35,047 bases of DNA, taken from a virus. The position numbers were made by a program, and so were the translations under genes. Below the pieces are notes generated by a model, which saw only the letters and a program-made list of their open reading frames with translations, did not search any database and was not told the origin of the DNA. Below, piece after piece: positions 5,913 through 29,888 of this stretch (position 1 is its first letter; each line of letters opens with the position of its first letter). The stretch covers positions 1-35,047 of IMG/VR virus record IMGVR_UViG_3300031933_000381. The stretch is one strand, 5' to 3'.

Positions 5913-8900
5913 TTAAGCAGCGCCCCGAACCGCACGAATAATTGCGCCATTACTTTGTATATTAGCCACAACAACACCCACTACTTGGCGTGCTATGTCT
6001 TGGCCAACTGCTTGCGAGTTTTGCTCATTAGTTGAGCCTTGCACCGTAATTTGGTTGGTAATACTAATACTAACCCCGCCAGAACCAGCATCATTAGCAG
6101 CGCCGCCTGCATTGTAACGCCGCGCCATTTGGCTAATTTCTGTATTTTGTTTCGGGCTTAATACACGCTCACCGCGTTGTAATACATAGGTAGATTCATT
6201 CGGCACATAATCTAAACCACCGTGCGCAATACCAGCCGGTTGCTGAGCTTTTATTTGGCGAACTTGTTGTAAGCCCGTTAATACAGCAGCTGCAGCTGCA
6301 ACACCACCAAGTACAGGGCCAACAATAGGAATAGGAGCCAGCGATGTAAACGCCGCTGTTGCGCCTTGGTAGGTATTAATAACCGCTTGCGCAATAGCAA
6401 ACGCCTTGTAGGCTTTAAACGCTGTTTTGCTTTGGCCAGCCATAGTTTTAAACGTGGCTGCACCAATACCTACAACTGTTTTAGCTTTCTCAGCATTTGT
6501 TTGTGCTTCAAAGCTAGCTAATGCTACAAGCTGACTTTTCATTGCAGGTGCATATTGATCTGCAAATGCACCCATTAAACGCTGTAAATGTGCGGTATCC
6601 TCTTGCTCTGCTAAGCTATTAAAACCCTGTATTTGCGCTATGTTCTCATCAGCCCACTCACGCTTATTGCGCAATTGTATTTCTCTTAACCTTTCTTGGT
6701 GGGCTTCCTCGTCTGCTTCTTTTTGAGTTTGAAAACCTCTCGCTGCTAGTAATTCTTTTTCACGTTCTAACTGTAAAATTTGATTGTTAGCATTATAAAC
6801 AAGCTCTTCTTTTTCATCTTTGACACCAATAGAGCTTCGTCGCTTAGCATCAACCCGCGCCTGTTGGCGTGCTTGCTCTACACTCAGTTCATTGTTGTAA
6901 GCGGCCAGTGCCTCACGCCCAGCAAAACCCTTTACAGTAGCAATACGGTTTTCTAAGTCGCGCTGTAAATCGTTTTTACGTTTTTCTTCAGCTTGGTTTT
7001 GTATACGTGTTTTTTCGGTTTCACGTTTTTGTGCAATGGTTTTTAGGTCTTCACCGTATTTAACATCAAGCTGCTTTAAAATGGCGTCATATTTAACTTT
7101 GTTAGCAGCATCGTTTTCACGGGCAACGATCACCATTTGCTTGCGTTTTTCGTAACTGTCTTTTAAGCGGGCCTCTTCGCCCATTAAGCTTACTTCTAAA
7201 CGCTTAATGTTGTCGGGCAGGGCGCTTGAGCTAACAGGGGCAGGCTTAGGCTTTTCAGTTTCTTTAATTGCGAGTACTTGTTGCAGTGCCACAATTTCAT
7301 TTTTAAGGTCGGTAACGCGTTTTTCAGCCGCCTCTACGTCAGAAAACCTACCTTTTAAGAATGGGTTGTTAAAACGATCCCGTGCTTCATCTGCAAGTTG
7401 AATCGCGTTTTTAATACGCCCTTGAGCCATTAGCAGTAAGCCTTGCGCTTGGCTACCGGTTAAATTGGCATACGGGTTTAGGTCTTTACTGGCTTCTTTA
7501 AGTTTATTAACGGAATCGGTAGCGTCATCGCCCTGGCTTGCAAAGTAAGCAAGGCCAAGCCCTGCGGTAACAAGTAAACCTACAGGGCCACCTAATAACC
7601 CCATTACGGTACTAAGGCCACGCGCTGCTAGGGTCGCTCGCCCAGCGGCAGCAGTATAAATATTGGTTGCGGTAGTTGCGGCAGCTTGTGTTGCTGTATA
7701 GCGGGTATTAGCAGCGGCTAAACGGGCAACAGCAGCAGTACGTAAATTAGTAGTGTTAGCCACAGCAAGCGTATGTTGTGCATATGCTTTCATTTGTGCG
7801 GCGCGCTGTAGCTCTAATACCGCATTAGCTTGGTTTTGTTTTGCAAGGGCTGCATCCGCAATTAACGCGCGGTTCTTAGCGGCCACATTAGCAACATAAC
7901 CCGCAGCACTGGCGCTTAAACCCGCTACTAAATGGCCTGTTAATACCGTAGCCAATGCACCGGTAGCAAATACCAAATTATCAACAGCGTCTTCATTTTG
8001 GCGTAAATACGCCATGGTATCGGTAATTGAGTCAACCACGCTAGTTACAGCAAAATTTACTGGCTCTTCGTATTTACGTATTAAGCGCTGGTACTCGTTA
8101 CCCATTTCCGCAAAGCTGGTGTTTATTTTACCCTCAGTGGCCTCGGCCGCACCGGCATAATCATTTAATGCCTTAATGAGGTAATTTTTAAACATTTGGC
8201 TGGTTACTTGACCATCGTTCACCATTTGCCTAAAACCGCCGGCGGCTTTGCCTGCTGCTTTATCAAGTTTTTGTAAAAGCCCCGGCATGGGTTCTGTTAC
8301 TTGGTTTAACTCTTCCGCGCGTAAAACGCCGGCAGTCATGCCCTGAGTCATACCAAATAAGCTTTGTCCAAGCTGCACATTGCTCGCACCTGTTTTAGCG
8401 GCGGCGTTAGCCATGCCTTCTAAAATGGCTTTACCTTGAGTTTGGGTAACAACGCCTACTTCTTGCAGGGTTAAAATTTTACTATAAGAGTCTGCAAGGG
8501 TGGTGTAACCGGTGTTTAATCGGTCAGAGGTGGCAAATAAATACTCTTGTACTTTGGCATAGTTTTCAGCTGAGCCCGTCAACCCTTTTAAGCGGGTATC
8601 AAGCAACTGGGCTGCGCCCGTATCGCGCACAAACATGGTTGCCGTGCCAATGCCCACTAATGTCGTGAGCGTTGCACCTATTTGCCCATAGGCTGTATTC
8701 ATTAACCCCAACTGGCGGGTCATTGCGCCTTGCTGTTGCATAATACGGGCTTGGCTGGCACCTAATTGCTGATTTGCGGCAACTTGGCGTTGTACCGCTT
8801 GGGGAATGCGGTTTAGTTCGTTTACGTTTTGGCGCGCACCGGTGGTAACTGCTTTACCGTCATAACTTAAGCGTAACGCCAAATTCAAGTTGTTGCTCAT
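5913..8900 (-). CDS. Tail tape measure protein
   Basis: At 995 residues this is the longest complete protein, as expected for the ruler of a flexible tail. The N-terminal region (about 90-280) has the conserved tape-measure domain pattern (GLTGSAENYAKVQEYL, then MTAGVLRAEELNQVTEPMPG). Three hydrophobic segments follow: about 305-335 (FATGALATVLTGHLVAGL), about 430-455 (GLLGGPVGLLVTAGLGLAYF) and near the C-terminus (PIPIVGPVLGGVAAAAAVLTGL). A charged coiled-coil stretch lies between them. The protein sets tail length and is ejected into the envelope at infection. The ATG at 8900 has AAGG nine bases upstream and lies 41 bases inside the chaperone extension gene, as is common for chaperone-tape measure pairs. 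Confidence 0.92.
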   Translation of the reverse strand: MSNNLNLALRLSYDGKAVTTGARQNVNELNRIPQAVQRQVAANQQLGASQARIMQQQGAMTRQLGLMNTAYGQIGATLTTLVGIGTATMFVRDTGAAQLLDTRLKGLTGSAENYAKVQEYLFATSDRLNTGYTTLADSYSKILTLQEVGVVTQTQGKAILEGMANAAAKTGASNVQLGQSLFGMTQGMTAGVLRAEELNQVTEPMPGLLQKLDKAAGKAAGGFRQMVNDGQVTSQMFKNYLIKALNDYAGAAEATEGKINTSFAEMGNEYQRLIRKYEEPVNFAVTSVVDSITDTMAYLRQNEDAVDNLVFATGALATVLTGHLVAGLSASAAGYVANVAAKNRALIADAALAKQNQANAVLELQRAAQMKAYAQHTLAVANTTNLRTAAVARLAAANTRYTATQAAATTATNIYTAAAGRATLAARGLSTVMGLLGGPVGLLVTAGLGLAYFASQGDDATDSVNKLKEASKDLNPYANLTGSQAQGLLLMAQGRIKNAIQLADEARDRFNNPFLKGRFSDVEAAEKRVTDLKNEIVALQQVLAIKETEKPKPAPVSSSALPDNIKRLEVSLMGEEARLKDSYEKRKQMVIVARENDAANKVKYDAILKQLDVKYGEDLKTIAQKRETEKTRIQNQAEEKRKNDLQRDLENRIATVKGFAGREALAAYNNELSVEQARQQARVDAKRRSSIGVKDEKEELVYNANNQILQLEREKELLAARGFQTQKEADEEAHQERLREIQLRNKREWADENIAQIQGFNSLAEQEDTAHLQRLMGAFADQYAPAMKSQLVALASFEAQTNAEKAKTVVGIGAATFKTMAGQSKTAFKAYKAFAIAQAVINTYQGATAAFTSLAPIPIVGPVLGGVAAAAAVLTGLQQVRQIKAQQPAGIAHGGLDYVPNESTYVLQRGERVLSPKQNTEISQMARRYNAGGAANDAGSGGVSISITNQITVQGSTNEQNSQAVGQDIARQVVGVVVANIQSNGAIIRAVRGAA

Positions 8901-9563
8901 CGGGTCGCCTTATTAGTCCAATTATGGTGCGCTCTAGGGTTTGCAGTTTTGCAAAATCATCGGGATTAAGGGTTATATTTGCATAACGCCAGGCTATATC
9001 AGCCCTGGCATAATCAAGGGCAATTTCTACCCCTTGGTTATCCCGTTGCCATTGGCTGCTAGCGGTAGTTAATGCCAATACCGCTGTGTGGTTTTGGGGC
9101 AATACAAACAATGTTTCCTCATCGTGTGGCACAATATTTTTAGGTGCGCCAAAATGGGCTTCGTCGTCATCAAGGGTTTTACTGTCTGCTGCTAGGTCGC
9201 CCAAAAACCACCTAGCAACATCGGCTAGTTTTTTTCAGTGATACGGTACTGGGCGTTAATGCACTCAACGCTTAAGCGGGCAGTGATGCCGCTGTACACT
9301 AGCAGCTCTTCAAGGGTGCTTTTATCAAAGGGCACCTCTTTACCGTCATCAATAAAGTCACCCCAACTTACTAACAGCTCACGTACAATCTCGCCATCAC
9401 TAGCGCCTTGTTTTTCTGTAAGTTCTTTAAGCTCACTTTCAGGAACCAGTCTAATGTATGCCGTAAATTTAAAAACCACACCACCAAACTCAAAATTGAG
9501 TGGAGCTTTTATAGCTGCTTTATTTAACTCGTGTAATAATTTTAATTTCATTTTAAAGTTCAC
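8860..9563 (-). CDS. Tail assembly chaperone, -1 frameshift fusion (GT-like)
   Basis: Slippage at 9228-9234 joins the upstream chaperone to a downstream frame that is open from the slip site to the stop at 8860. The frame offset is exactly -1. The join reads LADVARWFLGDLAAD, with no stop between slip site and body. The predicted fusion is about 234 residues (112 plus 122). The downstream part has no convincing start of its own: the first candidate is a TTG at 9204 without a clear ribosome binding site. In lambda the G-T fusion bridges tape measure and tube subunits. The 3' end overlaps the tape measure start by 41 bases. Confidence 0.8.
9225..9563 (-). CDS. Tail assembly chaperone, short (zero-frame) product
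   Basis: A 112-residue protein directly upstream of the tape measure gene, in the position of lambda G. It starts at a GTG whose last two bases overlap the upstream TGA; an ATG at 9551 is an alternative. The coding sequence ends GAA AAA AAC TAG, so a canonical A AAA AAC slippery heptamer abuts the stop. Most ribosomes would end here; the rest would slip by -1 and make the extended product. In long-tailed phages these two proteins coat the tape measure during tube polymerisation. Identification rests on position, size and the slippery site rather than on a recognised sequence domain. Confidence 0.8.
   Translation of the reverse strand: MNFKMKLKLLHELNKAAIKAPLNFEFGGVVFKFTAYIRLVPESELKELTEKQGASDGEIVRELLVSWGDFIDDGKEVPFDKSTLEELLVYSGITARLSVECINAQYRITEKN
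9228..9234 (-). promoter_or_regulatory. Programmed -1 frameshift slippery site A AAA AAC
   Basis: On the coding (minus) strand, G followed by seven A, C and TAG gives codons GAA AAA AAC TAG. After a -1 slip the tRNAs re-pair on AAA AAA and reading continues at CTA. Confidence 0.85.
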
Positions 9564-9748
9564 TTATATGCATTCGTAAGTCGTTTAGCCTCATCCTTTG
9601 CGGCTTTAAGACTATTAAATTTAAGTATGCCGTTACTGTCTTTGCAGTAGCTTGGCGCTTTCCCTTTTTGCTTTGCAATGACCGTGTAAAATTCAACGTT
9701 CCCTGTATCAACATTTGTCATATTGATTGCTTGAAATCGCATAGTCAT
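9560..9748 (-). CDS. Small conserved-looking tail-region protein
   Basis: A 62-residue protein between the tail tube and chaperone genes. The ATG overlaps the tube gene stop (TAATG) and its own TGA overlaps the next GTG, so it is tightly coupled in the operon. The sequence is basic toward the C-terminus (KAAKDEAKRLTNAYK) and shows no domain I recognise. An ATG six bases downstream (9742) is an alternative start. The tight overlaps argue that it is a real gene; its function is unknown. Confidence 0.65.
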   Translation of the reverse strand: MTMRFQAINMTNVDTGNVEFYTVIAKQKGKAPSYCKDSNGILKFNSLKAAKDEAKRLTNAYK

Positions 9749-10644
9749 TACTCAAACACTATCGTCAGTTCGTCATAGCCCGCGCCACTGGGTACTAACT
9801 TGCCGTCAAACTCATAACCAGTTAATTCTGATTCCAGGCTAGTGTATTTAGGCCAAGGCATTTGGTAGCGGCCAATAATAGTTACTTTTTTACCTGCGGC
9901 GGTACCGTGGGTAAATTCAAACATTTGCACCTTGCCCACATCATCAAACGGGTTAAAGGTGGCCAGTTCTTCGGCGGTTAGCGTAAAATTGGCGCTGCTT
10001 TCGTGACCGGTAATCATTATTTCTTCGTGATTAATGGCGCGGTCAAACACCGCGTTATTACCTAAGTCGACTGTGAGTTTGTGCAGGGTACGTTTAACAT
10101 CGTTAAGCTTAAAATCACTGCTATTACTTACGCCGAGCACTTCGGGGCGCACCCAACGATCCCAATCAACAGCAGGGGCGGCAGCACTTGCAACCGGCGC
10201 ACTAAATAACCCTTTAAACTGCCAGTTAAGCATGGGCTTGCCTTTTTCAAGCGCAAAGCTCACATTGCCTTTCATTTCACTAATGTTGTGAGTGTTTTTA
10301 CCAAAGCGTACTTTGCAGGTAACCGCCACAGCTGCGCCTTTAGTAAACGTAACGCTGCTTGCATCCGCCACTTGCACCATGCCACAGGCTAATAACAGCG
10401 GGGCAAACGCAGGCTCATTACCCACAGTGCCACTCATGGCAAGCGGCGTTTTAAAGTTAAGGCTTATATGCTCACCGTAAAACGTTTCAAGGCTGGCACC
10501 GCTGTAGCTGGTTTCTAGCTCGTCTTTTTCACTTTCGCTTTCAAGGGTCAATTCAACTTCACTGGCATAAATAGCATGTAGGCCTGTTAAGGTTGTGCCC
10601 AGCGCATCCGCTAAAATGAGTTTGTCTTTAAATCGCCAACTCAT
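9748..10644 (-). CDS. Major tail tube protein
   Basis: A 298-residue beta-rich protein placed between the tail terminator-like gene and the chaperones, where siphophages encode the tube subunit. The N-terminal part (WRFKDKLILADALGTTLTG) and the repeated alternation of polar and hydrophobic residues fit the tube fold, and the C-terminal half may carry an extra surface domain. The tube subunit polymerises around the tape measure to form the tail shaft. The start is an ATGA overlap with the upstream stop. Confidence in the role comes mainly from gene order, length and composition. Confidence 0.8.
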   Translation of the reverse strand: MSWRFKDKLILADALGTTLTGLHAIYASEVELTLESESEKDELETSYSGASLETFYGEHISLNFKTPLAMSGTVGNEPAFAPLLLACGMVQVADASSVTFTKGAAVAVTCKVRFGKNTHNISEMKGNVSFALEKGKPMLNWQFKGLFSAPVASAAAPAVDWDRWVRPEVLGVSNSSDFKLNDVKRTLHKLTVDLGNNAVFDRAINHEEIMITGHESSANFTLTAEELATFNPFDDVGKVQMFEFTHGTAAGKKVTIIGRYQMPWPKYTSLESELTGYEFDGKLVPSGAGYDELTIVFE

Positions 10645-10844
10645 GATTTAATCTCCACTTTAATCAGCTCACCACTTTTTAAGTTAAAAGCGCCGGCTAT
10701 CTCGTCTCTGTTACCTTTTGCTTTAGCTAAAGCCTGGTTAACGTTTTGGGCAATCGTCATCGCGCGGGACATTTTAGGCGTTATGTTAACGTCAGCCTGT
10801 TGTTCAGCGGGTTTACTCGATTGCGGCTCGGTCTGTTTGCTCAT
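10641..10844 (-). CDS. Small acidic/polar protein of the head-tail operon
   Basis: A 67-residue protein joined by ATGA overlaps both to the tail terminator-like gene before it and to the tube gene after it. The N-terminal third is rich in Gln, Ser, Glu and Lys and looks disordered; the rest (MSRAMTIAQNVNQALAKAKGNRDEI) is probably helical. No family is recognised. Its fixed place within an overlapping gene string supports it as real and probably needed for assembly. Confidence 0.6.
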   Translation of the reverse strand: MSKQTEPQSSKPAEQQADVNITPKMSRAMTIAQNVNQALAKAKGNRDEIAGAFNLKSGELIKVEIKS

Positions 10845-11284
10845 GGCATCACCTTCACAGTTACGGTATGTAGGCCAGTTACACTAAACTGGCACTGGTA
10901 AATTAAGTTATTAGTTTGCTTGCTAAGCTCAATTGTGCGGCCCTTATCAAGCTTTATAGGGTTCCAACCTGCGAACTGGCAACCTGCTACAGCGGTTTTA
11001 ACATCACTGCGCAATTGCTTTATTTGCATATCGCTATGGGCATTACCTGCAGAGCAGGGGATCACAATCATCACTGCAAACACATCTTTAATTTGGTATT
11101 CGTCAAGGCCATGTACTTCATTAGTGTTGGTGTTGTCATCGGCCAGCGGCAATACAAACAACTGGGCACTGTGTACAGCATGCTCGCGCACATGGTTAAA
11201 GTCGCTAGCAAACCCTACCGTTGCATTAATCACTGTGTTACTTAGCAGGGTTTCTATGTTGTTTAAATCAAAGTTAAATGCCAT
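10841..11284 (-). CDS. Tail terminator-like protein (Mu gp37-like position)
   Basis: A 147-residue protein upstream of the tube gene and downstream of the virion morphogenesis gene, the slot of the tail terminator or neck protein. The pattern (N-terminal helix LNNIETLLSN, later DEYQIKDVFAVMIVIPCSA, then a C-terminal strand QCQFSVTGLHTVTVKVMP) fits the small alpha/beta fold of Gp37-type and lambda U-type proteins. Such proteins cap the finished tail tube before head joining. A phased TTTAAA array (11261-11301) covers the first codons and the short gap upstream, so any protein bound there would sit over the start of this gene. Confidence 0.6.
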   Translation of the reverse strand: MAFNFDLNNIETLLSNTVINATVGFASDFNHVREHAVHSAQLFVLPLADDNTNTNEVHGLDEYQIKDVFAVMIVIPCSAGNAHSDMQIKQLRSDVKTAVAGCQFAGWNPIKLDKGRTIELSKQTNNLIYQCQFSVTGLHTVTVKVMP

Positions 11285-11301
11285 TTAAATGCTCTTTAAA
11301 T
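11261..11301. repeat. Phased TTTAAA octamer array 2 (four units)
   Basis: Octamers start at 11261 (GTTTAAAT), 11272 (AGTTAAAT), 11283 (ATTTAAAT) and 11294 (CTTTAAAT), all exactly 11 bp apart. The array spans the beginning of the leftward gene starting at 11284, the gap before it and the stop of the gene ending at 11296. Confidence 0.75.
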
Positions 11302-11718
11302 TAACCAATCAGTAATAATGTCGTTAATCTCAGTTTCTTGCACAGCAGCTATACCAATAATTGGCCGTGCGGGTAACTTAACGTTTTTATTGCGGCCCGT
11401 TTCACCACCAAAATGGTGTATTGCTGAGTACTTTTCACCTAAGCCATGCTCAAGCGTATTACCGTTTACGTTGTGCGTTACCGAGCCTGCAAGATTGCGC
11501 TCATCTGTTAGTGTTAAACCGGCACGGTCTTTTGCTGCTTGCGATTGCTCCCATTTACGGCCTTCGGGTGTTACTTCACGTAAAAATCGGGTAGTAACAT
11601 CCATGTCTAAAAATGCACCAATATCATCCAATACATCAGCGGGTTCACCACTTGTATTAGCAATTTGGGTTAAGCCGGTTAGCGCATTACCCGTTATATT
11701 TATAAATACACCCGCCAA
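11296..11718 (-). CDS. Phage virion morphogenesis protein (Mu gpG-like)
   Basis: The body of the protein (FINITGNALTGLTQIAN through PARPIIGI) carries hallmarks of the virion morphogenesis family (Mu gpG, P2 gpS): an early conserved strand, a central TRFLREVTPEGRKWEQSQ-like block and a HHFGG...LPARP C-terminal motif. The family acts in head-tail joining or tail completion. The frame is open up to an ATG at 11793, but that would read deep into the upstream gene. I prefer a TTG at 11718, two bases after the upstream TAA, which gives 140 residues, the usual family length. The unusual start is the main uncertainty. Confidence 0.8.
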   Translation of the reverse strand: MAGVFINITGNALTGLTQIANTSGEPADVLDDIGAFLDMDVTTRFLREVTPEGRKWEQSQAAKDRAGLTLTDERNLAGSVTHNVNGNTLEHGLGEKYSAIHHFGGETGRNKNVKLPARPIIGIAAVQETEINDIITDWLI

Positions 11719-11719
11719 T

Positions 11720-12187
11720 TTAATAACCTGGCCAATTAAATTGAGAGCCTGCAGGTTTGGTTCGCATCCCAGTTCTTGCACCTGCAGGCGCATCTTCCTT
11801 AATTTGGATCACACCTTTACTAACCTTATCTAGCATTGCCATGGCGTTACTTTTTAGGGCTTTAAGGTTTTCGTCAGCAATGTTAGGGGCTAACTCACAA
11901 TGCATTAAATCGTTAGCAATGCCTGGCAATACCGAGTTATTAATATCGTCTTGGTTTAATGCAAACCGTGCTACATAGCCTGCTATAACCGCATTTACAT
12001 TTTTTTGTGCTTGTACATACCAGGCATTAATTTGCTCTTGCAACTCGTTGTACGTTTCGCTTAAAAGCGCTGCTTCAACATCGTCGCGCGTTGGGCGGCT
12101 ACCTACCGCTGCAAACTTAGCAGTCGCAAATTGCAACAGCGTATTAATGCCAACTTTATCTATAACTGCTTGTTCTGTCGTAAACAT
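11720..12187 (-). CDS. DUF1320 head-completion protein (Mu gp36-like)
   Basis: About 155 residues from an ATG at 12187 preceded by TGAGGTG. The N-terminus (FTTEQAVIDKVGINTLLQFAT), then a helix with DDVEAALLSETYNELQEQINAWYV, matches the DUF1320 pattern. These proteins sit at the head-tail interface in Mu-like phages. It is the first gene after a strong terminator placed behind the major capsid gene, so its expression probably depends on readthrough. The remaining tail genes follow in an overlapping string. Confidence 0.8.
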   Translation of the reverse strand: MFTTEQAVIDKVGINTLLQFATAKFAAVGSRPTRDDVEAALLSETYNELQEQINAWYVQAQKNVNAVIAGYVARFALNQDDINNSVLPGIANDLMHCELAPNIADENLKALKSNAMAMLDKVSKGVIQIKEDAPAGARTGMRTKPAGSQFNWPGY

Positions 12188-12203
12188 GGGCACCTCAGTT
12201 AGT

Positions 12204-12240
12204 AAAAAAAGGCCCCGAGCAATTCGGTACTGGGGCCTTT
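12204..12240 (-). terminator. Rho-independent terminator after the major capsid gene
   Basis: AAAGGCCCC (12208-12216) pairs perfectly with GGGGCCTTT (12232-12240). Read leftward the stem is followed by seven T. It follows the capsid gene stop (12264) and precedes the DUF1320 gene, which has no obvious promoter of its own. Confidence 0.85.
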
Positions 12241-12263
12241 ACACAGGGAACAACAATAATTAA

Positions 12264-13199
12264 TTACGCTGGTGTCAGCACGTTGGTAAGCAAAATACCG
12301 CAGTCTTTTGCAATAATTTGCTCTTGCACCGATTCGCCTACCATAATTTCAACCCCACCATTTATGCCCGCAGCTACGTCACGGTTGCCCGATGTACGCG
12401 AGCCATAACGTGCAGTGAGTGCAAAGGTCATGCGGTTGTTGTTAAACGACGCTAGCGGGTCGTGGTAAGTAAACGACAAGGTATCTTGCCAAACCTTTTG
12501 TAAGTTAACGGCTTGGCCTTTTTTAGCCGTGTTTAGGCGCGCTTGGCCAACGGTTATATGCTCAAGCTCTAGCACTTCTTTAATGTAGCTCCACGGCACT
12601 AAGCCCTGGTCGCCACTAGTGCCATTAAACGCTTTAAGTAACTTAGGGTGTGTACGCAGTTTAGTTGCCACGCTTTGCGATAATGTCATTGCATTAGGGC
12701 GCATAAGTGGTGCATCTAGCATTTCTAAAAAAAACGGTAAAATATCAAGTGCAGGGTCATCTAAACGTTTTTGGCCTGCTGCAGCTAACGATTGAGTACT
12801 GCCAAAGTTAGCGGCTTTGTTATACATAGTTGCCACACGTATTTCACGGTTCAGCAAAACTAAGTCAGTTAAGCTCTCCGCTGCATGAGTACGCGGGTTG
12901 TAGTTTGCTGGCGCATTGGTTACATCATCATTTGGCACCACATCAGATAAACCATGATCAACCACTGAGCCGGTTTTCTCTTCAACACTAAACTCAACTT
13001 GATTCGGCGATGACTTACGGCCAATTTTATCGTCTACAACGGTAAACTTTTCGCCTTTTTTATACTCGGTCCACTTATAGTTACGTAAACCAACGGGTGA
13101 ATAGGGCGCAAGTGTGTCTGCAACTAACGCTCTATTACGATAAGCAATGGCTATGGCCGTTTGCTCAACATCGGGGGTAAATGGCATACCATTACTCAT
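12264..13199 (-). CDS. Major capsid protein (B3/Mu-like)
   Basis: A 311-residue protein following the protease/scaffold and decoration genes, the standard place for the coat protein. The N-terminal block (DVEQTAIAIAYRNRALVADTLAPYSPVG, then KGEKFTVVDDKIGRKSSPNQVEFS) is typical of the capsid family found in transposable siphophages. The HK97-type fold is expected from the family, not visible directly. The ATG has GAGG seven bases upstream. A strong terminator behind the gene would make this and the two genes before it more abundant than the tail genes, which fits the many copies needed. Confidence 0.88.
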   Translation of the reverse strand: MSNGMPFTPDVEQTAIAIAYRNRALVADTLAPYSPVGLRNYKWTEYKKGEKFTVVDDKIGRKSSPNQVEFSVEEKTGSVVDHGLSDVVPNDDVTNAPANYNPRTHAAESLTDLVLLNREIRVATMYNKAANFGSTQSLAAAGQKRLDDPALDILPFFLEMLDAPLMRPNAMTLSQSVATKLRTHPKLLKAFNGTSGDQGLVPWSYIKEVLELEHITVGQARLNTAKKGQAVNLQKVWQDTLSFTYHDPLASFNNNRMTFALTARYGSRTSGNRDVAAGINGGVEIMVGESVQEQIIAKDCGILLTNVLTPA

Positions 13200-13240
13200 G
13201 GCAAATCCTCACTATTAATAATTAAGTTAACCCAAGCGCC

Positions 13241-13636
13241 TTAAGCGCTTGGAATTGTTGCTACTACATGCGGGTTTAAAAACACGTCGCCAATCACTCC
13301 AGCTTCGCCGTCTTCCATTACCCAACCTGCAACGTATACTTCGGTTTGGCCCACAAAGTTAGCAGGGTCAAACTCAACGGCTTTACCTTCGCTATCAGCA
13401 ACAATTGGGGTGCCTGCAATTAACGCTTCACCAAACTCAACAGGCGCGCTTTGTGTCATCACCACATCAACACGTAAATGCTCGTCAGTGCCTTGCTCGG
13501 TAACACCGGCATACATTGCGCTAGCATCCACCGCTAACCCAACATGAAAGTCAGCCGCAGCCGATACAACCACTAAACGGTTAGCCGGTATAACGTCTTC
13601 AGCGCTAAAGTTTCTTATAAATCCTGGTTGTGCCAT
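13241..13636 (-). CDS. Capsid decoration / cement-like protein
   Basis: A 131-residue, beta-rich, acidic protein between the scaffold and the capsid gene. The sequence (DVIPANRLVVVSAAADFHVGLAVDAS ... VFLNPHVVATIP) follows the pattern of small capsid cement proteins encoded in this slot (DUF2190-like and similar families). Such trimers or dimers bind the capsid surface and stabilise it after expansion. The family name is uncertain; position and composition are the main support. Confidence 0.7.
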   Translation of the reverse strand: MAQPGFIRNFSAEDVIPANRLVVVSAAADFHVGLAVDASAMYAGVTEQGTDEHLRVDVVMTQSAPVEFGEALIAGTPIVADSEGKAVEFDPANFVGQTEVYVAGWVMEDGEAGVIGDVFLNPHVVATIPSA

Positions 13637-13640
13637 GGTT

Positions 13641-14093
13641 TTACGCCTTTTTAATGTGGTCTAACGCGGCAGTAATGCTAATTTCAATGCCTTTGCTAGA
13701 TTGTGATTGTTGAAATTCCAGCGCTTTTGCTGCCAATGTTTCTGCACTGTCGTCAGTCACTTCGCCGTCTTTATCGTCCTTGTTAAACTCGTGAGTTAAA
13801 CCCGTTTGCTCAGGCAAGCCCTTTAAAAAGCCTTCAAACCACGCAGCAGGTTTAAGTTCCTGGCTTTTACCGTCTGCGGCAGCAAACTCAAAAGTGGTGT
13901 CGCCGTCATCAAGCTTGGCCATAAACTCAGCCACACCCTCTGTGTTTGTTAAGCGCGGGGCTTTGCCGCCATTAATTTCGGTGTTAATAAAGGTGTTAGC
14001 CGCTGCAACACGCTGCGCGAATTCAAGCTGTGCGTTTTTAGCGTTAGCTGCATCAATCTGGTCTTGCAGCGCCTTTCTTTCTTTTTCATCCAT
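13641..14093 (-). CDS. Nested head scaffold protein (Mu Z-like)
   Basis: In-frame internal gene of about 150 residues starting MDEKERKALQDQIDAANAKN. GAGGA at 14101-14105 lies seven bases before the ATG, a well-placed ribosome binding site inside the longer gene. The product would be the free scaffold, made in excess over the protease fusion, as known for Mu Z within I. The sequence is helical and charged throughout, as scaffolds are. Confidence 0.7.
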   Translation of the reverse strand: MDEKERKALQDQIDAANAKNAQLEFAQRVAAANTFINTEINGGKAPRLTNTEGVAEFMAKLDDGDTTFEFAAADGKSQELKPAAWFEGFLKGLPEQTGLTHEFNKDDKDGEVTDDSAETLAAKALEFQQSQSSKGIEISITAALDHIKKA

Positions 14094-14798
14094 TGCATGG
14101 TCCTCATGGGTGGGTGGTGTGGCATTGCTGTTATTAATAGCGTCGCCTTTACTAAATTCGGCTCCCTCGCCACTATTCACCTTGGCACGTTCGTGCTCAG
14201 CAATAATGGTTTCTTCTTTTAACCATTCGCTTTCGTAGTCGGGCACAACTTTATCAGCCGCTTCACTGCCAAAACGGTCAGTTATAAAGTTGCGTAAATT
14301 GCCCATTAGGCGGGTAAGGGTGTTTGATGTGCGCAGCGATATGTTGTCAATATCACCGGCAGCAAATTCTAGGGTTAGGGTATCGGCGTCATCCGCTTGG
14401 TTAAACTGCCAGGCTAAACCGTCAACGGCAGGGGGCTTGCCCCCTAAATAACCAATGTGGGCAAGTTGGTAGCCATTAGCTACCTTTTCAAGCTTAACCG
14501 AGCGGTTAGGGTATCGCTTGCTTTGTACCGCTTGAGCAAATTCAGCACACACATCTTCTGCTTTAGCAAACAAAGAGCCACCTTCTGCTTTTAGCTCACT
14601 GGCCCAACCCCACGCAGGGTCGTCCATTTTAGGGTGTCCAATAACCAGTGGTGCTGTTTTAGGTTTAAAGTTAGCGACTACGCTGTTTAAATCAGCGTCG
14701 CTAAATGTGTGCTCAACGCCTTTAGAGTCGGTTTGTGTGCCAGCTCTAAATACTTCAAACCAATCAAATTGGGTGTTTTTGTTTGTTTTGTCTGCCAT
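13641..14798 (-). CDS. Head maturation protease-scaffold fusion (Mu I-like)
   Basis: A 385-residue protein. Residues about 1-150 match the Mu I protease domain (WFEVFRAGTQTDSKG, NFKPKTAPLVIGHPKMDDPAWGWASELK, YPNRSVKLEK, AHIGYLGGKPPAV); the GHP region and the later NRSVKL block are family hallmarks. After a polar linker (about 205-235) comes a Lys/Gln/Glu-rich helical scaffold part (236-385). The protease cleaves scaffold and capsid protein during maturation. An internal ATG at residue 236 has its own ribosome binding site, reproducing Mu's nested I and Z genes. It is first in the leftward capsid operon, behind a predicted activated promoter. Confidence 0.88.
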   Translation of the reverse strand: MADKTNKNTQFDWFEVFRAGTQTDSKGVEHTFSDADLNSVVANFKPKTAPLVIGHPKMDDPAWGWASELKAEGGSLFAKAEDVCAEFAQAVQSKRYPNRSVKLEKVANGYQLAHIGYLGGKPPAVDGLAWQFNQADDADTLTLEFAAGDIDNISLRTSNTLTRLMGNLRNFITDRFGSEAADKVVPDYESEWLKEETIIAEHERAKVNSGEGAEFSKGDAINNSNATPPTHEDHAMDEKERKALQDQIDAANAKNAQLEFAQRVAAANTFINTEINGGKAPRLTNTEGVAEFMAKLDDGDTTFEFAAADGKSQELKPAAWFEGFLKGLPEQTGLTHEFNKDDKDGEVTDDSAETLAAKALEFQQSQSSKGIEISITAALDHIKKA

Positions 14799-16740: not shown

Positions 16741-16847
16741 CATTCTCCAATCAGTTAAATTAAATACACGTAAATTAAATACAATCAGTGAGCATCTACA
16801 ATAACTACCCTTGGTAAAAACCACTGTCGGAAAAACCTTTACATATA
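16738..16847 (-). repeat. Shared promoter-leader repeat, copy 1
   Basis: This 110-bp block is nearly identical to 17521-17615 and differs mainly by a 15-bp internal duplication (ACGTAAATTAAATAC). It carries the ribosome binding site, leader, -10 and activator motif of the leftward gene ending at 16207. Confidence 0.85.
16798..16843 (-). promoter_or_regulatory. Predicted activator-dependent promoter, cassette 1
   Basis: Motif copy GTCGGAAAAACCTTTACA (16826-16843) lies exactly 22 bp before TATTGT (plus-strand 16798-16803), reading leftward. Confidence 0.6.
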
Positions 16848-17520: not shown

Positions 17521-17615
17521 CATCATTCTCCAATCAGTTAAATTAAATACAATCTGTGAGCATCTACAATAACCAACCGTTGTTAAAACCACTGTCGGAA
17601 AAACCTTTACATATA
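17521..17615 (-). repeat. Shared promoter-leader repeat, copy 2
   Basis: This 95-bp block matches 16738-16847 apart from a 15-bp duplication there and scattered changes near the middle. It covers leader, -10 and activator motif of the leftward gene ending at 17137. Confidence 0.85.
17566..17611 (-). promoter_or_regulatory. Predicted activator-dependent promoter, cassette 2
   Basis: Motif copy GTCGGAAAAACCTTTACA (17594-17611) lies exactly 22 bp before TATTGT (plus-strand 17566-17571), reading leftward. Confidence 0.6.
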
Positions 17616-18049: not shown

Positions 18050-18736
18050 TCAATCCACTTTACGTGCTCGTTGCAGCACACGCTCTACACGGCCAAGCAC
18101 GCTAAAGCGTCCGGCGTTAATATCATCCGCATCAACAAAAAAGCCTGAGTAGGCGCTGTTGTCGCTGGTAATGCTGTAACCCTTACTTTTAAAGTCGTAC
18201 TGAATACGCTTTACAAAAATCTCATCATCAAATCGCAGTACGCATACACCCTCACGCGCATCTGCAGGATCATCAATTAGCGATACCAAGGTTAAATCAC
18301 CATCATACAAGGTGTGCTCCATACTGTCGCCGCGCACAGGCACTACCGTAAGCGTTTTATTATGTAAGTTATTTTGTTGCAGCCAACGGGTAGAAAGCTC
18401 AAACCGTGCTATAGGGTGTTCGGCAATAACCAAAGCACCACCGCCAGCACTGGCCGCTAAATCGTATTGTGGCACAGCCGTTAAATCAGCATGGCTGGTT
18501 TGCAGTGCTGTGCTTTGTATTTGCGCCGCGGCAACTGGTAATGAATCACTTTTACAACCAGTAACCACAAAATTGATGTCAAATCCTAGCTTTGCAAGTT
18601 CAGATAATTTATCGGATGGGATTGGTGAACCCGACTCCCATCGGTAATAAGTAACCTTGCTCACACCCACAGCTTCAAAGACATCTTTTTGTTTTAAGTT
18701 AAGCCTTTCTCTTTCTTCCAATAAAAAAGGTTTCAT
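18050..18736 (-). CDS. LexA/CI-like lysogenic repressor with S24 self-cleavage domain
   Basis: About 228 residues from the ATG at 18736. An upstream in-frame ATG (18790) would put the early promoter's operator inside the gene, so I reject it. Residues 7-55 form an XRE helix-turn-helix (LNLKQKDVFEAVGVSKVTYYRWESG). The C-terminal half is a peptidase S24 domain: candidate cleavage site Ala97-Gly98 (LAASAGGG), catalytic Ser138 (GDSMEHTL) and Lys176 (IFVKRI). RecA-stimulated self-cleavage and hence SOS induction are expected from the family. This differs from phage Mu, whose repressor lacks such a domain. It faces the Ner-like gene across the operator-promoter region. Confidence 0.9.
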   Translation of the reverse strand: MKPFLLEERERLNLKQKDVFEAVGVSKVTYYRWESGSPIPSDKLSELAKLGFDINFVVTGCKSDSLPVAAAQIQSTALQTSHADLTAVPQYDLAASAGGGALVIAEHPIARFELSTRWLQQNNLHNKTLTVVPVRGDSMEHTLYDGDLTLVSLIDDPADAREGVCVLRFDDEIFVKRIQYDFKSKGYSITSDNSAYSGFFVDADDINAGRFSVLGRVERVLQRARKVD

Positions 18737-18743
18737 ATATTTA
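18728..18743. promoter_or_regulatory. Candidate second operator over the repressor start
   Basis: AGGTTTCATATATTTA matches 13 of 16 positions of the palindromic operator at 18760 and covers the repressor start codon, so occupancy could limit repressor synthesis. Confidence 0.5.
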
Positions 18744-18754
18744 GTCTTTTCACC

Positions 18755-18784
18755 TTGACAGGGTTCATATATGAACCCTATACT
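18755..18784 (+). promoter_or_regulatory. Early promoter with palindromic operator spacer
   Basis: TTGACA (18755-18760), an 18-bp spacer, TATACT (18779-18784). The spacer is the perfect palindrome GGGTTCATATATGAACCC; with one further pair it runs 18760-18779. Any protein bound to it blocks the promoter of the Ner-MuA-MuB operon. Confidence 0.85.
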
Positions 18785-18864
18785 CAACACACATTAACAA
18801 AAACATACACTTTAAATCTCGCCAAAGAACCAAAAAGCGTATGTAAACCAAAAGGCACTTTACA

Positions 18865-19128
18865 ATGAAACCCGAGCAAATAAAACAAGCACTTGAAGAA
18901 AAAGGCTATTCACTGTCAATTGTGGCAGCGGCACTTGGCCTAAACCTATCTCATGTAAGCAGTGTTGTTTACCAGCACACCACCTCGTATAAAGTGGCTG
19001 CCGCCATTGCCAAAATTATTGGCAAACCAGTTGAGGCTATTTTCCCTGATGTACCTGCCTATACCAAAAATAAAGACACCCGCAGCCAAAAAGTACAAGC
19101 GCTGCGCGAGCTTTTATCGGCTGAGTAA
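18865..19128 (+). CDS. ner: Ner/Nlp-like DNA-binding protein
   Basis: An 87-residue protein with the Ner-type helix-turn-helix: EQIKQALEEKGYSLSIVAAALGLNLSHVSSVV (about 4-35), then the second conserved part AAAIAKIIGKPVEAIFPDVP (about 43-62). In Mu, Ner turns down both the repressor and the early promoter once the lytic cycle has begun. It is the first gene after the early promoter at 18755, as in Mu. AAGG stands nine bases before the ATG. The target operator is probably in 18755-18864 but no second repeat is obvious there. Confidence 0.85.
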   Translation: MKPEQIKQALEEKGYSLSIVAAALGLNLSHVSSVVYQHTTSYKVAAAIAKIIGKPVEAIFPDVPAYTKNKDTRSQKVQALRELLSAE

Positions 19129-20832: not shown

Positions 20833-22497
20833 ATGCATCCTGCAGTTCAAAAATACAATAAGTTACCAAGTATAGGTAACGAGCTGAGTTGGCAAAACGC
20901 CAGCGAAACAGCCCGTAAAAAAGCCCAAAGTAGGGCGGTGCTAGTTCGCCATTTACTTACCCAAGAGTGCGGCATACCTAAAGCGTTTGAAGCATTAGTA
21001 ACAGCGTATCGCAACAATACTCTTATGGGCACGATCACCACCGCCATTAACGAGCTGGGTAAGTTACCCGGGCGCGCAACCATTTATAACTGGTGCAATG
21101 CGTATAAGGACAATGGCGTTAACAGCCTATTGCCAAACCATAAAGGCAAAGCCCAAACACAGTACAGCTGGCTTGCCCGCTGCCTTGAGCTTTACCACAG
21201 CCCTAATAGCCCAAGCTTTGCACAAGTGACTGACCAGTTAAACAAAGAGGGTTACAAGGCCGAGCATCACCAAGTGCGCCGCTTTATTAATGCACTGCCG
21301 CACGAGCTTGGCCCACAAAGCCCGTATCGTATGGGTGCAAAACTGTACCGTGAAAAACATAAAGACCACCTTTTACGTTCTACCGAAAATATGAAGCCTG
21401 GCGTTATGTATAACGGCGATGGCCACACGCTCGACGTATACCTAGCTCACCCTAAAACGGGCAAGCCTTACCGTGCAGAGTTAACTGCGTTTCAAGACGT
21501 AGCAAGCCGCTGCATTGTTGGTTGGGAACTCGGCTACGCAGAAAGTACGCTCGATACACTCGCAGCTATTAGCCGCGCCATTAAAGTACATAACAACGTG
21601 CCTGCCATGTTTTATCTCGATAACGGCTCTGGCTACAAAAACAAACTAATGAACGACGACACCACCGGTTTTTATGCTCAGTTTGAAATAGACGTAATAT
21701 TTGCCATACCAGGCAATGCCCGCGTTAAGTGGATAGAACGATTCTTTTTACACATGGAAGACCGTGTTGGTAAACGTTTTAGTACCTATTGCGGGCGCGA
21801 CCACGACGATCGCCATAAGCAACTGGTACTTAAAGAGGCTAAACAGGGTAAACGTAAGCTACCGACAGTAGACGAATGGATAGCTGAGTTTAAAGCATTT
21901 TTAAACGACTACCACAACAGCGAACACCCCGAGGTTAAAGGTAAAACCCGCCAACAAGTGTGGGATGAAAACATTGAGCGCGTGCCACCGGTAGAGGGTG
22001 ATTTTGTCATGCTACCACGCGAAACCGTCAATATTCGCCGTGGCCGTTTCCGCCTGCATCAACGTGATTATTCAGCTGACTTTTTACACCAGTTTAACGG
22101 CCAAGAGCTTGTTGCCGCTTACGACCTACACGACGACAGCTACACCAAGCTTTATAAGCTAAACGGTGAGTTTTTAATGTTCGCTAACTTAAAAACTAAA
22201 TCGCACGCGGTGCCTACATCTCGCATCGAGCAAGCCGAAAGCAAACGCCGTACAGGCCGCTTAAAACGCATCGACACCAAACGCCGTGAAATTGAAGCCC
22301 AAGAGAATCAAGAGCGCATTATTGATGTTGACTCAGTAGCGAAGTTTGCAGCACCCATTAAAGGTATTGAAGCACAAGAAGCACCGGTAAACATTTTTGA
22401 TTTTGATGTAACGCCAGCACAGCCGCAGCACGAAATCGACCTAAACGAATTACTTGATCAACCTAATTTACGCAAGGAAACAACCTATGAGCTATAG
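20833..22497 (+). CDS. Transposase, MuA family (DDE integrase)
   Basis: A 554-residue protein. After an N-terminal DNA-binding region (about 20-160, including a Mu-type helix-turn-helix around GRATIYNWCNAYKDNG), the catalytic core shows the DDE triad: Asp196 in YNGDGHTLDV, Asp263 in FYLDNGSG and Glu302 in KWIERFF. The NGDG context is the MuA signature. A beta-barrel domain (about 395-470, FVMLPRETVNIRRGRFRLHQRDYSA) and a basic C-terminal arm (KRRTGRLKRIDTKRREIEAQ) that would contact MuB follow. It is shorter than MuA (663), consistent with lack of the enhancer-binding N-terminal domain. AGGAGAG precedes the ATG. It joins phage ends to target DNA in integration and replicative transposition. 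Confidence 0.95.
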   Translation: MHPAVQKYNKLPSIGNELSWQNASETARKKAQSRAVLVRHLLTQECGIPKAFEALVTAYRNNTLMGTITTAINELGKLPGRATIYNWCNAYKDNGVNSLLPNHKGKAQTQYSWLARCLELYHSPNSPSFAQVTDQLNKEGYKAEHHQVRRFINALPHELGPQSPYRMGAKLYREKHKDHLLRSTENMKPGVMYNGDGHTLDVYLAHPKTGKPYRAELTAFQDVASRCIVGWELGYAESTLDTLAAISRAIKVHNNVPAMFYLDNGSGYKNKLMNDDTTGFYAQFEIDVIFAIPGNARVKWIERFFLHMEDRVGKRFSTYCGRDHDDRHKQLVLKEAKQGKRKLPTVDEWIAEFKAFLNDYHNSEHPEVKGKTRQQVWDENIERVPPVEGDFVMLPRETVNIRRGRFRLHQRDYSADFLHQFNGQELVAAYDLHDDSYTKLYKLNGEFLMFANLKTKSHAVPTSRIEQAESKRRTGRLKRIDTKRREIEAQENQERIIDVDSVAKFAAPIKGIEAQEAPVNIFDFDVTPAQPQHEIDLNELLDQPNLRKETTYEL

Positions 22498-23731
22498 CCA
22501 ACCACACCCATACACGCCTGAGCAAACGCTGCGTGTTGAGCTAATAAACCAAGAGTTAAGCACCACAGGCATGACCGCCGAGGAGCTAAACTGTGGCTTT
22601 GCCCTGCAATCAGTTAAAGAAGTACTAGCAAATAAATGCACCATTAACCCTGAAAAAATCATTGTGGCTATGTGGCATAAGCTATTTGGTGAAGCCGCTA
22701 TTACCGATATTGAAAAACGTAATGGCTTTAATAAGTCGTACAACAAAGCCGATCGTGAACTGGCAGCGCGTATTTGCCTGCGTTTGCAATCACCCGAAAT
22801 ACGCGACCAAAACATTACCAGCGCCAGTATTGCTGTGAGCATGGGTAAAAGCCCTGCATCAATAAGCCAACTCATTAACGGTAAATACAACGCCAAGCCT
22901 ACTAAGCACTTGCATGACATTTGGGCGCTTATTTGCCCTGCAGAGGTAGAGCAAGGCAAAATTAGCGGCGAGCTTACTGAGCGCAAACAAATAAGCATTG
23001 TGTACGGTGATGTGCGCTTTATTCCTACCAGTACATCTAAGCTTATTGCTATGGCCTGCGACCAAGCTCGCCAACGTAAACGCTTTAGTGTATTTGCAGG
23101 CCAAGCAGGGCTGGGTAAAACCAAAGGTATTACGGAATATTGCCGCCACAACAAAGAGGCCATTTTAATTGCTGGCAGTGAGCAAACAAGCAGCACCCAA
23201 GTGCTAGAGCAACTAACTTTAGCCCTGGGCTTATCGCGCTGCCCAAGCGCGTATAAAAACATGCAAAAAATTATTCAAGCACTGCGCGATACCGACCGTT
23301 TAATAATTTTAGACGAAGCCGACAAATGCAAACCTAACTCGCTCGACCCACTGCGCACCATAAGCGACCAAGCTATTGTAGGCGTAACCCTGGTTGGCAA
23401 CATTCAACTAGTAGACAAACTGCAAACCCAAGAGCGCTACGAACTCATTGCAAGCCGCGTATGTTTTTGGCCAAAGCCCATAGGCCAAATAACCGTTGAA
23501 GATATACGCACCCTGTTTTTAGAGCTCACCGAGGGCACCGTAAAACTCGCTCAAGATGATGCTAAGTGGTGGCAATGGCTACACAAACGGGTTGAGGGTA
23601 ACGCGCGTGAGCTAGTTGAAAACTTGCTACCGCACTTGCTTAACCACACCAACAAAAACCCAGACACCGCCGTAGACAAGCTGTTAGTTAATGGCATTTT
23701 TTCATCAGTACTTAATAAACCAGCGGTTTAA
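22487..23731 (+). CDS. Transposition target activator, MuB-like AAA ATPase
   Basis: 414 residues from the ATG at 22487, which has AAGGA upstream and overlaps the transposase end by 11 bases. Walker A is GQAGLGKT (205-212), Walker B LIILDEAD (272-279). MuB-type proteins bind DNA as filaments, choose the target and stimulate the transposase. It is about 100 residues longer than Mu B, with an extra N-terminal part that includes a helix-turn-helix-like segment (ASIAVSMGKSPASISQLINGKYNA, about 113-136). The TTTAAA array 4 begins at the stop codon. Confidence 0.92.
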   Translation: MSYSQPHPYTPEQTLRVELINQELSTTGMTAEELNCGFALQSVKEVLANKCTINPEKIIVAMWHKLFGEAAITDIEKRNGFNKSYNKADRELAARICLRLQSPEIRDQNITSASIAVSMGKSPASISQLINGKYNAKPTKHLHDIWALICPAEVEQGKISGELTERKQISIVYGDVRFIPTSTSKLIAMACDQARQRKRFSVFAGQAGLGKTKGITEYCRHNKEAILIAGSEQTSSTQVLEQLTLALGLSRCPSAYKNMQKIIQALRDTDRLIILDEADKCKPNSLDPLRTISDQAIVGVTLVGNIQLVDKLQTQERYELIASRVCFWPKPIGQITVEDIRTLFLELTEGTVKLAQDDAKWWQWLHKRVEGNARELVENLLPHLLNHTNKNPDTAVDKLLVNGIFSSVLNKPAV

Positions 23732-27643: not shown

Positions 27644-28149
27644 TGGCACACCCAGCTGAAAAGAAAAACGCCGTACGCCACAGCTATGTGACCGAGTTGC
27701 TTGCGTTAAGTGTTGCCGCTATTAAGCACAGTGTGGCCGATGGAACCGCACGACGCTGGAAAATGGAAGCCAAAGACAACGGTGACGATTGGGACTTAGC
27801 CCGTGCAGCAAGCCGCCGTAGCGAAGGCACAGCAGGGGAGTTTACCACCGACTTTATTGAAGAGTTTACCATTCAAGTAAACGAAACTTTTGAGCTTTTA
27901 AAGTCAGCCGAAGGCGCAGCACTGCCACTTGAGCAACGCACCAAAATATTGAGTTCACTTACAGATATGATGAGCAAGGTAATGAAAGTGTCGGGCGGTA
28001 ATAAAAAGCTTGAAAAGCGCACCATTGCCACAGAAGTACTTAAAATTTTGGCTAAGTTTGTGTCAACCAAATACCCTGACTTTGCGCCCGAATTTGTTGA
28101 AATACTTACCGCGTTTGGTCCTAAGCTCGATACGGAGTTAGACGACTAA
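27643..28149 (+). CDS. Small terminase subunit-like protein, DUF1804
   Basis: A 168-residue protein. The N-terminus MAHPAEKKNAVRHSYV ... LSVAAIKHSVADGTARRWKMEAK ... GDDWDLARAA matches the DUF1804 family well, including a helix-turn-helix-like DNA-binding part (about 15-45). The family lies directly before the large terminase in transposable siphophages and is regarded as the small subunit that recognises phage DNA. Start and stop overlap the neighbouring genes (TAATG on both sides), indicating coupled translation with its partner. Confidence 0.82.
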   Translation: MAHPAEKKNAVRHSYVTELLALSVAAIKHSVADGTARRWKMEAKDNGDDWDLARAASRRSEGTAGEFTTDFIEEFTIQVNETFELLKSAEGAALPLEQRTKILSSLTDMMSKVMKVSGGNKKLEKRTIATEVLKILAKFVSTKYPDFAPEFVEILTAFGPKLDTELDD

Positions 28150-29888
28150 TGGCCGATATGAATTCACGCGAGTTTTTAGCTGAAATAGAACAAATAACCG
28201 GTTCGCTACGCCGCGATATTGAAGCAAAAGAGCGCAACATAGACCCAAGTCCCGCAGCAATTAAAGCACGTCGTAAACGTGTACTTGGCGGCGATTTTGA
28301 GTTTTTTGTTTATACGTATTTTCCGCATCATATGTGGCTTGACGACGATCAAACAGCGTCTGAGTTCCAAAGCTATTTTATGAACTGGTTTCCCGAAGCA
28401 CTCAAGCTTAAAAATGGCTGGAAAAACTGGTTTGTAGCCCCGCGTGGTGAGGGCAAAAGTACCCTTGGGGTAAAAATTGCCCCTGTGTATGTAGCGGTGT
28501 TAGCGCTATTGCAAGATCCTGAGATTTGCCAAGACCTGGGCCTTGCCAAAATAAAGCAATTTATTGATTTTGTAATTTTGTTTGGCGCTGAAACAAAAAT
28601 GCCAACCAAAACACTCGAGGTGGTTAAAACCGAGCTACTTAACAATAATAATCTTGCGTTAGACTTTCCCGAAGTGTGCCAAAAATCCCCTGTATGGAAG
28701 TTAGGCGAGTTTGTAACAGCGCAAGGCGTACGCTTTGAAAGCCGTGGTGCTGAGCAGTCAGTACGCGGTACGTTCCATGGTGCCAGCCGCCCTAAGCTAC
28801 TGCTATCCGATGACATTATTACCGATGCCGAAGCTAAATCGCCCACAGAGCGTGATAACCGTTGGCGCTTTTTAGAAGCCGCCGTGCAATACCTTGGCCC
28901 ACCCGATGGCACCGTTAAATTTTTAGGTGTAAATACTGTATTAAATAACGATGACCCAATAAGCCGCGCCGAAGAAGCGCCTGGGCATATTGTTCACCGC
29001 TTTAAAGCCATTAAACAAATGCCTGAGCGTATGGATTTATGGGAAGAGTGCCGCGATTTAATGGTGCATGACGACAAACGCTTTGAAAAACGTGCTGCCG
29101 CAAAGGGTGAGGCCGTCTCAACAGAGCAAAAACCCTCGTTTAAATTTTGGTTAAAGCGCAAAAAGCAAATGCTTAAAGGTGCCCAAACCAGTTGGCCAAG
29201 TGTGCGTACACTCTACGATTTAATGTGTATGTGGGCTGCTAATAAACGTGAGTTTAACCGCGAAATGCAAGGCATTGCCAAAAGTGACGAAGAAGCCATA
29301 TTTTACCAGTTTGATTTTTGGGTAGACCGCTTAAACGAATGGATACCTTATGGCGCTTGTGATCCAAGTATGGGCAAAACAGAAAAAGCCGATCCCAGTG
29401 CTATATTAGTGGGTTTTTATTCCCAAGATTTACAAAAGCTGCACGTTGAATACGAAAGCCGTAAGGTTCGTGGTACTAGCCGTTTACTTAACGACTTAAT
29501 TCGCGCCCAAAAAGAATATAACTGCCGCGTATGGGGCTTTGAAAATAACAATGCCTTTGATTTTATGCGTAGCCAATTTATTACTACAGGCTTAGAGCAA
29601 GGTATAGCACTGCCTTTACGTGGTGTTACAGCAACCATATCTGCAGAGGAACGTATAGGCTCACTTGAAACTTATGTTACCAATACGCCGGCACAAATTG
29701 CCTTTCATTCACGGTGTCGCTTACTACTCGACGAGCTTGAAAACTGGCCCGAAAAGCAAACAACCCATCACTACGATTTAAGTTGTGCCCTGGCTATTTT
29801 ATGGATGATAGCCAGCACAGGGGCAGGCGGCGTTCCTCGTGTAAATAGCCGTAAAGTGACAAAACAAATAAGGGGCTATCATGTTTAA
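28149..29888 (+). CDS. Terminase large subunit
   Basis: A 579-residue protein. Walker A is APRGEGKST (97-105) and Walker B KLLLSDD (216-222). The C-terminal nuclease has acidic residues in YGACDPSMGKTEKADPS (about 393-409), WGFENNNAFDF and THHYDLSCA. It pumps DNA into the prohead and cuts it when full; Mu-like phages package by headful from the phage end into flanking host DNA. Residues 3-28 (DMNSREFLAEIEQIT onward) resemble the C-terminus of the accessory protein at 15920, an unusual link. The portal start overlaps the 3' end by eight bases. Confidence 0.92.
   Translation: MADMNSREFLAEIEQITGSLRRDIEAKERNIDPSPAAIKARRKRVLGGDFEFFVYTYFPHHMWLDDDQTASEFQSYFMNWFPEALKLKNGWKNWFVAPRGEGKSTLGVKIAPVYVAVLALLQDPEICQDLGLAKIKQFIDFVILFGAETKMPTKTLEVVKTELLNNNNLALDFPEVCQKSPVWKLGEFVTAQGVRFESRGAEQSVRGTFHGASRPKLLLSDDIITDAEAKSPTERDNRWRFLEAAVQYLGPPDGTVKFLGVNTVLNNDDPISRAEEAPGHIVHRFKAIKQMPERMDLWEECRDLMVHDDKRFEKRAAAKGEAVSTEQKPSFKFWLKRKKQMLKGAQTSWPSVRTLYDLMCMWAANKREFNREMQGIAKSDEEAIFYQFDFWVDRLNEWIPYGACDPSMGKTEKADPSAILVGFYSQDLQKLHVEYESRKVRGTSRLLNDLIRAQKEYNCRVWGFENNNAFDFMRSQFITTGLEQGIALPLRGVTATISAEERIGSLETYVTNTPAQIAFHSRCRLLLDELENWPEKQTTHHYDLSCALAILWMIASTGAGGVPRVNSRKVTKQIRGYHV

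Follow-up and report, generated by a model that had tools for sequence, protein, structure and literature searches.

DNA-damage release through S24 cleavage is the standard mechanism of CI repressors, and in lambda, P22 and 434 the repressor and its operators are exchanged as an immunity module. Operators situated between the -35 and -10 hexamers are known for P22 Arc/Mnt and for MerR; to our knowledge, the operators of phage Mu are not single palindromes in a promoter spacer. Among Mu-like phages, mitomycin induction has been shown for those of the Shewanella MuM16-1/MuSsp1_O23S type; the mitomycin-induced Mu-like phages described there possess HTH+S24 repressors, and the repressors of Mu, D108 and B3 are described without S24 (PMC8541194).

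The window, i.e. the whole stretch of DNA of a marine Mu-like phage analysed here (35,047 nucleotides, positions 1 to 35,047 of IMG/VR record IMGVR_UViG_3300031933_000381), contains a repressor gene c (18050-18736, minus strand, ATG at 18736-18734), which diverges from a ner-led early operon, a Mu-like trait. The first gene of this operon encodes a Ner-like HTH protein of 87 aa (18865-19128, plus strand). Three small or unassigned genes connect it to a Mu A-like DDE transposase of 554 aa (20833-22497, plus strand; Mu-transpos_C, rve) and a Mu B-like AAA ATPase (22487-23731, plus strand; AAA_22), assigned to PHROG 310 and 296. The repressor is 228 aa long and combines an XRE HTH domain (residues 1-60, 18557-18736, minus strand; recognition helix about 27-34) with an S24 peptidase domain (residues 94-217, 18086-18457, minus strand), both with Pfam matches above cut-off (HTH_3 6e-9, Peptidase_S24 8e-14). 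The former is exchanged between phages and the latter conserved between HTH classes. A cleavage site is predicted at Ala97-Gly98 (ASAGGG, 18443-18448, minus strand) and the catalytic residues at Ser138 (GDSM, 18323-18325, minus strand) and Lys176 (FVKR, 18209-18211, minus strand), which align with LexA Ser119 and Lys156 in an overall weak match of the S24 half to LexA (E about 0.04); none of A97-G98, S138 and K176 varies among 14 relatives. The phage collection contains only distant matches to the repressor (<60% identity), and the PDB sequence search with the full profile returned a designed HTH as its only match. In the AlphaFold model the HTH is good, but the S24 half has a pLDDT <50, for which reason the model was not used for fold assignment or fold searches.

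The early promoter Pe consists of a -35 hexamer TTGACA (18755-18760, plus strand) and a -10 hexamer TATACT (18779-18784, plus strand), together matching 11 of 12 consensus positions, and an 18 bp spacer, GGGTTCATATATGAACCC (18761-18778). No other promoter-like site faces in the early direction between positions 17400 and 20400. The exact palindrome that the initial annotation had placed between the two hexamers is present and in fact comprises 20 bp instead of 18, as it takes one base from each hexamer. This predicted operator, O1, has the sequence AGGGTTCATATATGAACCCT (18760-18779, no strand assigned), is centred on the Pe spacer and covaries with the repressor HTH. None of the other perfect palindromes in the window is as long, the runner-up measuring 14 bp. 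Perfect palindromes of at least 20 bp occurred in 13 of 200 first-order Markov shuffles of the window (about 6%) and are consequently not rare across 35 kb; the chance of such a palindrome at one given centre is about 1e-6. The window does not contain a second copy of O1 within three mismatches. An exact search for the 20-mer found no other IMG/VR contig carrying O1, a result to be expected with a separate site for each immunity type, and an Rfam search gave no match.

A second predicted operator, O2 (AGGTTTCATATATTTAGTCT, 18728-18747, no strand assigned), is centred 32 bp upstream of the O1 centre and overlaps the repressor ATG on the minus strand. Its 16 bp AGGTTTCATATATTTA (18728-18743) match O1 in register at 13 of 16 positions, including 12 of the first 13, a level that palindromes with shuffled halves reach in the O2 region only 0.2% of the time, which confirms the related 16 bp site noticed earlier over the start codon. 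In most promoter types a copy of the phage's own operator is located 29-33 bp upstream of O1, centre to centre, and the O2 slot fits the own O1 better than the O1s of other types (sum 135 vs about 89 expected, permutation P=5e-5). By shuffling, O2 is not significant in L083, L085, L088, L089, L090 and L033. In class B phages (see below) the spacer region is longer and contains as many as four sites (O1, about -32, -54 and -106), the outermost of which spans the repressor start. The O1-O2 distance of about three helical turns suggests that two dimers could occupy one face of the DNA. As to the earlier claim that this second site limits the repressor, the existence of the site is confirmed and the same geometry is found in several types, whereas the limiting is conjectural: on the minus strand no repressor promoter scored above 8/12 and none was convincing, so that autoregulation through O2 is no more than likely.

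Judged from the sites, the promoter, the recurrent O1-O2 spacing, the covariation of HTH and operator and their exchange as a cassette, all read from sequence, O1 is very probably the operator of a lambda-type immunity repressor, in an O1/O2 switch that would be induced by S24 cleavage. A repressor dimer bound to O1, between -35 and -10, would block RNA polymerase at Pe and keep ner, the transposase and the remaining early operon silent. A second dimer on O2, on the same DNA face and probably binding cooperatively, would probably reduce the repressor's own expression. Upon DNA damage, the S24 domain, stimulated by RecA, would cut the repressor between Ala97 and Gly98; its HTH domains would then no longer dimerise, and Pe would fire.

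Relatives from IMG/VR (13 for the repressor, 32 for the transposase) provide a natural comparison. A scan of genome contigs added only three further close relatives, all Pseudoalteromonas, which is the host wherever relatives were found in named genomes. Early promoter, leader and Ner are nearly constant among these phages, and the spacer palindrome varies by the HTH class of the repressor. Class A, to which the window belongs, has the recognition helix SKVTYYRWE and the spacer GGGTTCATATATGAACCC, and L002 combines SKGTYIRWE with GGGTTAATAAATTAAACC. The eight phages of class B have GKTTFLRWE or GKTTLLRWE and the spacer GTTTCAATATATTGAAAC, which is slightly varied in some of them. Class C has SSKQISRWE or SSKQVSRWE and AGACATATATGTCC beside a TATTCT-type -10. 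A palindrome spanning the whole spacer is not universal, as that of class C is displaced towards the -10 and type E2 (L032) possesses only an interrupted spacer palindrome. Averaged over 15 promoter types, for some of which the promoter anchors were set by eye, palindromicity is highest at the centre of the spacer (5.07 of 8 pairs at 14.5 vs a background of 2.13) and has a second, weaker maximum at -16.5 relative to the -35 hexamer, at the O2 position; in 14 of the 15 types at least six of eight pairs are centred within the spacer. Because the relatives keep the promoter while the palindrome and the DNA-reading half of the repressor are swapped jointly, the palindrome is very probably the docking site of the repressor. 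The covariation across related phages supports both earlier proposals, namely that the palindrome is the operator shutting the transposition operon and that the S24 repressor is its reader.

Comparison with two close phages of other classes, L003 (class B) and L004 (class C), delimits what is swapped. DNA identity is mostly 83-95% across the S24-coding part, falls to 52-67% between about 18590 and 18770, and rises to 88-100% from the -10 onward. As the drop is confined to the HTH and the operators, both were evidently exchanged together, with one breakpoint in the repressor-gene linker and the other at the -10 box; HTH and operators travel as a single cassette from phage to phage, always into the same promoter slot. 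The same slot holds other palindromes in phages that have the same transposase (85-97% identical) and unrelated short repressors without S24, such as L033 (TTGACA-GTGCACGTACGTGCACT-TATAGT). L044, with a more distant transposase, has TTGACA-TTTGCAAATATGCAAATG-TATATT. L105 represents a second transposable-phage family in Pseudoalteromonas, with a transposase not similar by BLAST and a different terminase. It has a related Ner, its repressor (L090), which lacks S24, contains a class A HTH that is 63% identical to that of the window over 64 aa, and its promoter reads TTGACA-GGGTTCACATGTGAACCC-TATAAT. L083, L085, L088, L089 and L091 possess a similar Ner, a class C HTH without S24 and GACATATATGT-type sites. 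It is somewhat probable that, in the transposable phages of Pseudoalteromonas, the HTH, both operators and the promoter spacer are exchanged as a single specificity cassette. Such a cassette would fit into a conserved promoter frame, pass between unrelated families of transposable phages and be uncoupled from S24, so that immunity group and SOS inducibility would be gained and lost separately.

The short repressors also bear on the manner of induction. The repressor may bind O1 and O2 with its S24 domain serving only for dimerisation, an antirepressor or another signal lifting repression; we consider this possible, though unlikely. In the sister phages whose transposases are 85-97% identical, the repressors are short and lack S24, hence the early circuit can work without cleavage, and antirepressor induction is described for other phages (PMC3121763). 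Against it stand the invariance of Ala-Gly, Ser and Lys in the 14 relatives and the HTH+S24 repressors of those Mu-like phages for which PMC8541194 reports mitomycin induction. With HTH and S24 present and Ala97-Gly98, Ser138 and Lys176 conserved, SOS induction of the phage in the window by the cleavage route is plausible. The contrast that the initial annotation drew, SOS-inducible unlike Mu itself, is fair and not new, the link between S24 and mitomycin in Mu-like phages having been published (PMC8541194).

A different reader of O1 has little in its favour. The Ner-like protein could bind O1 and shut Pe after an initial burst while the S24 repressor works elsewhere, and ner does come first in the early operon. 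In Mu-like phages, Ner-type proteins bind beside Pe and repress it. This assignment is nevertheless improbable to a high degree: Ner of L005 (class C) is 100% identical to that of the window and Ner of L003 and L004 99%, yet their palindromes differ. The identical Ner beside a different palindrome in L005 argues for the repressor, and not Ner, as the reader. Moreover, it is the leader that is conserved near ner, which makes it a better Ner candidate. It contains an inverted repeat, CATACACTTT-N20-AAAGCGTATG (18804-18843, plus strand), whose arms covary between phages: they change jointly around a conserved TCGCCAAA loop, with 4 of 14 predicted pairs changed on both sides. The repeat is likewise found in the second transposable-phage family and is a candidate for a Ner operator or an RNA hairpin.

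It is scarcely credible that a spacer-bound regulator bends the DNA and activates Pe as in MerR systems. MerR operators also lie in the promoter spacer, but the regulator here is XRE + S24 and not of the MerR family, and Pe, with a normal 18 bp spacer and near-consensus hexamers, needs no activation. That the palindrome is a chance or structural feature has next to no probability, given that O1 lies exactly in the spacer and that unrelated palindromes fill the same slot in relatives; even though about 6% of shuffled windows contain a 20 bp perfect palindrome somewhere, chance is already contradicted by the HTH-operator covariation.

The late module of the phage is split (3129-14798 and 28149-34133). 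Protease, scaffold, major head, tape-measure and tail genes run leftward from 14798, left of the repressor, and terminase, portal and minor head genes run rightward from 28149; the Mu gene order with the head genes in one rightward block is not found in the window. An assembly error as the source of the leftward head and tail genes was rejected, the Pseudoalteromonas chromosome G020 being collinear over most of the window, and the split module is also present in related prophages such as that of G020. KS10 likewise has a divided capsid module, split differently (PMC2628397). Gene order is a variable trait, and the split head block therefore does not exclude the phage from the Mu-like group. 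A 77 bp repeat (92% identical) is located at 16771-16847 and 17539-17615, upstream of small accessory genes, with a 35 bp repeat beside it.

The right end of the phage is at 34415 (...GAACAACCCCTTACA), and the DNA beyond it is host DNA, as the empty site in G119 demonstrates. The dif core lies at 34449-34469, 33 bp past the phage right end. Among the 16 copies in which both features were read directly, the distance from phage end to dif is 14-145 bp in 15 and 338 bp in the other, and the same dif half always faces the phage. In distant relatives dif is found about 0.3-1.6 kb from the last phage gene in the same orientation. Of the evaluable Pseudoalteromonas genomes with the transposase (53-95% identity), a count that omits G035, which could not be judged, 16 of 17 have dif about 11-14 kb from it, the exception being G052; the viral contig G004 contains no dif. 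The dif of either chromosome can be used, as the phage of G033 lies beside a second dif and not the one at the response-regulator gene. The offsets from dif differ between species, which speaks for repeated insertion. Entry into dif by XerCD is not favoured, since the conserved CTTACA ends lie at varying distances outside dif. The closest analogy known to us is provided by Tn5053/Tn402, the "res site hunters". No report of a Mu-like phage with an insertion preference for the side of dif was found in the literature searched; a DDE-transposase phage repeatedly inserting beside dif thus looks unreported and possibly more interesting than the switch.

Complete left ends (L133 in G056, L134 in G019 and L131 in G020) start with TGTAAGC[CT]GC and pair with the right-end CTTACA as a terminal inverted repeat, with an XerD-type half-site TTATGTTAAAT about 55 bp inside. 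TGTAAG...CTTACA ends are present in G019, G020 and G056; the left end of the phage analysed here lies outside the window. A 5 bp GTAAT duplication flanks only the phage of G019; G056 has a 277 bp flanking repeat and G020 no clear one. In G010 the phage right end is doubled in tandem with a 20 bp repeat (L130, 2819-2854), possibly a relic of an earlier insertion beside dif. The host DNA of the window also contains a 28 bp inverted repeat, ATGTCCAATAC-TAGACG-GTATCGGACAT (11+6+11, 34526-34555). It occurs in 100 of 108 Pseudoalteromonas genomes, usually once per chromosome, and in the majority of the genomes checked its chromosome I copy and dif are about 50-100 bp apart.

With the relatives, about ten HTH-operator pairs are at hand within a single promoter slot. 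Some of these pairs are separated by just a few residues of the recognition helix, and together they would allow a direct test of XRE operator choice and of changes in immunity group. Close phages with S24 or short repressors would make the effect of SOS coupling comparable while much of the rest of the phage is nearly constant.

In parts and logic, the locus is a lambda-type immunity region in a Mu-like phage, a combination already reported. As in CI/LexA-type HTH-S24 repressors, an N-terminal XRE HTH is joined to a C-terminal S24 domain with an Ala-Gly site and a Ser/Lys dyad. With the c/ner/Pe region of Mu it shares a repressor divergent from ner, A and B and a Ner-like first gene, the Mu repressor differing in that it is described without S24 (PMC8541194). 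HTH+S24 repressors like that of the window are described for the Shewanella phages MuM16-1/MuSsp1_O23S and other Mu-like phages (PMC8541194), from which the clade of the window differs by its split head genes. P22 Arc/Mnt and MerR belong to regulator families other than XRE-S24. In Cluster A mycobacteriophages, repressor and site motif also diverge together and set immunity groups, but there the divergence is gradual and involves many dispersed stoperators, in contrast to cassette exchange into one promoter slot (PMC6550527). The CI regions of lambda, P22 and 434 share with the window an HTH+S24 repressor, a divergent early promoter, more than one palindromic operator and an operator specificity tied to the HTH. 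Unlike these, the window has an early operon that serves transposition and an O1 that coincides with the promoter spacer; in place of OR1-OR3 there are two main sites, spaced about 31-32 bp, and the breakpoint lies inside the repressor gene, of which the S24 part stays. The present comparison adds a fixed operator slot, a cassette exchange that cuts through the repressor gene and spans two transposable-phage families, and an operator specificity that is separate from SOS coupling.
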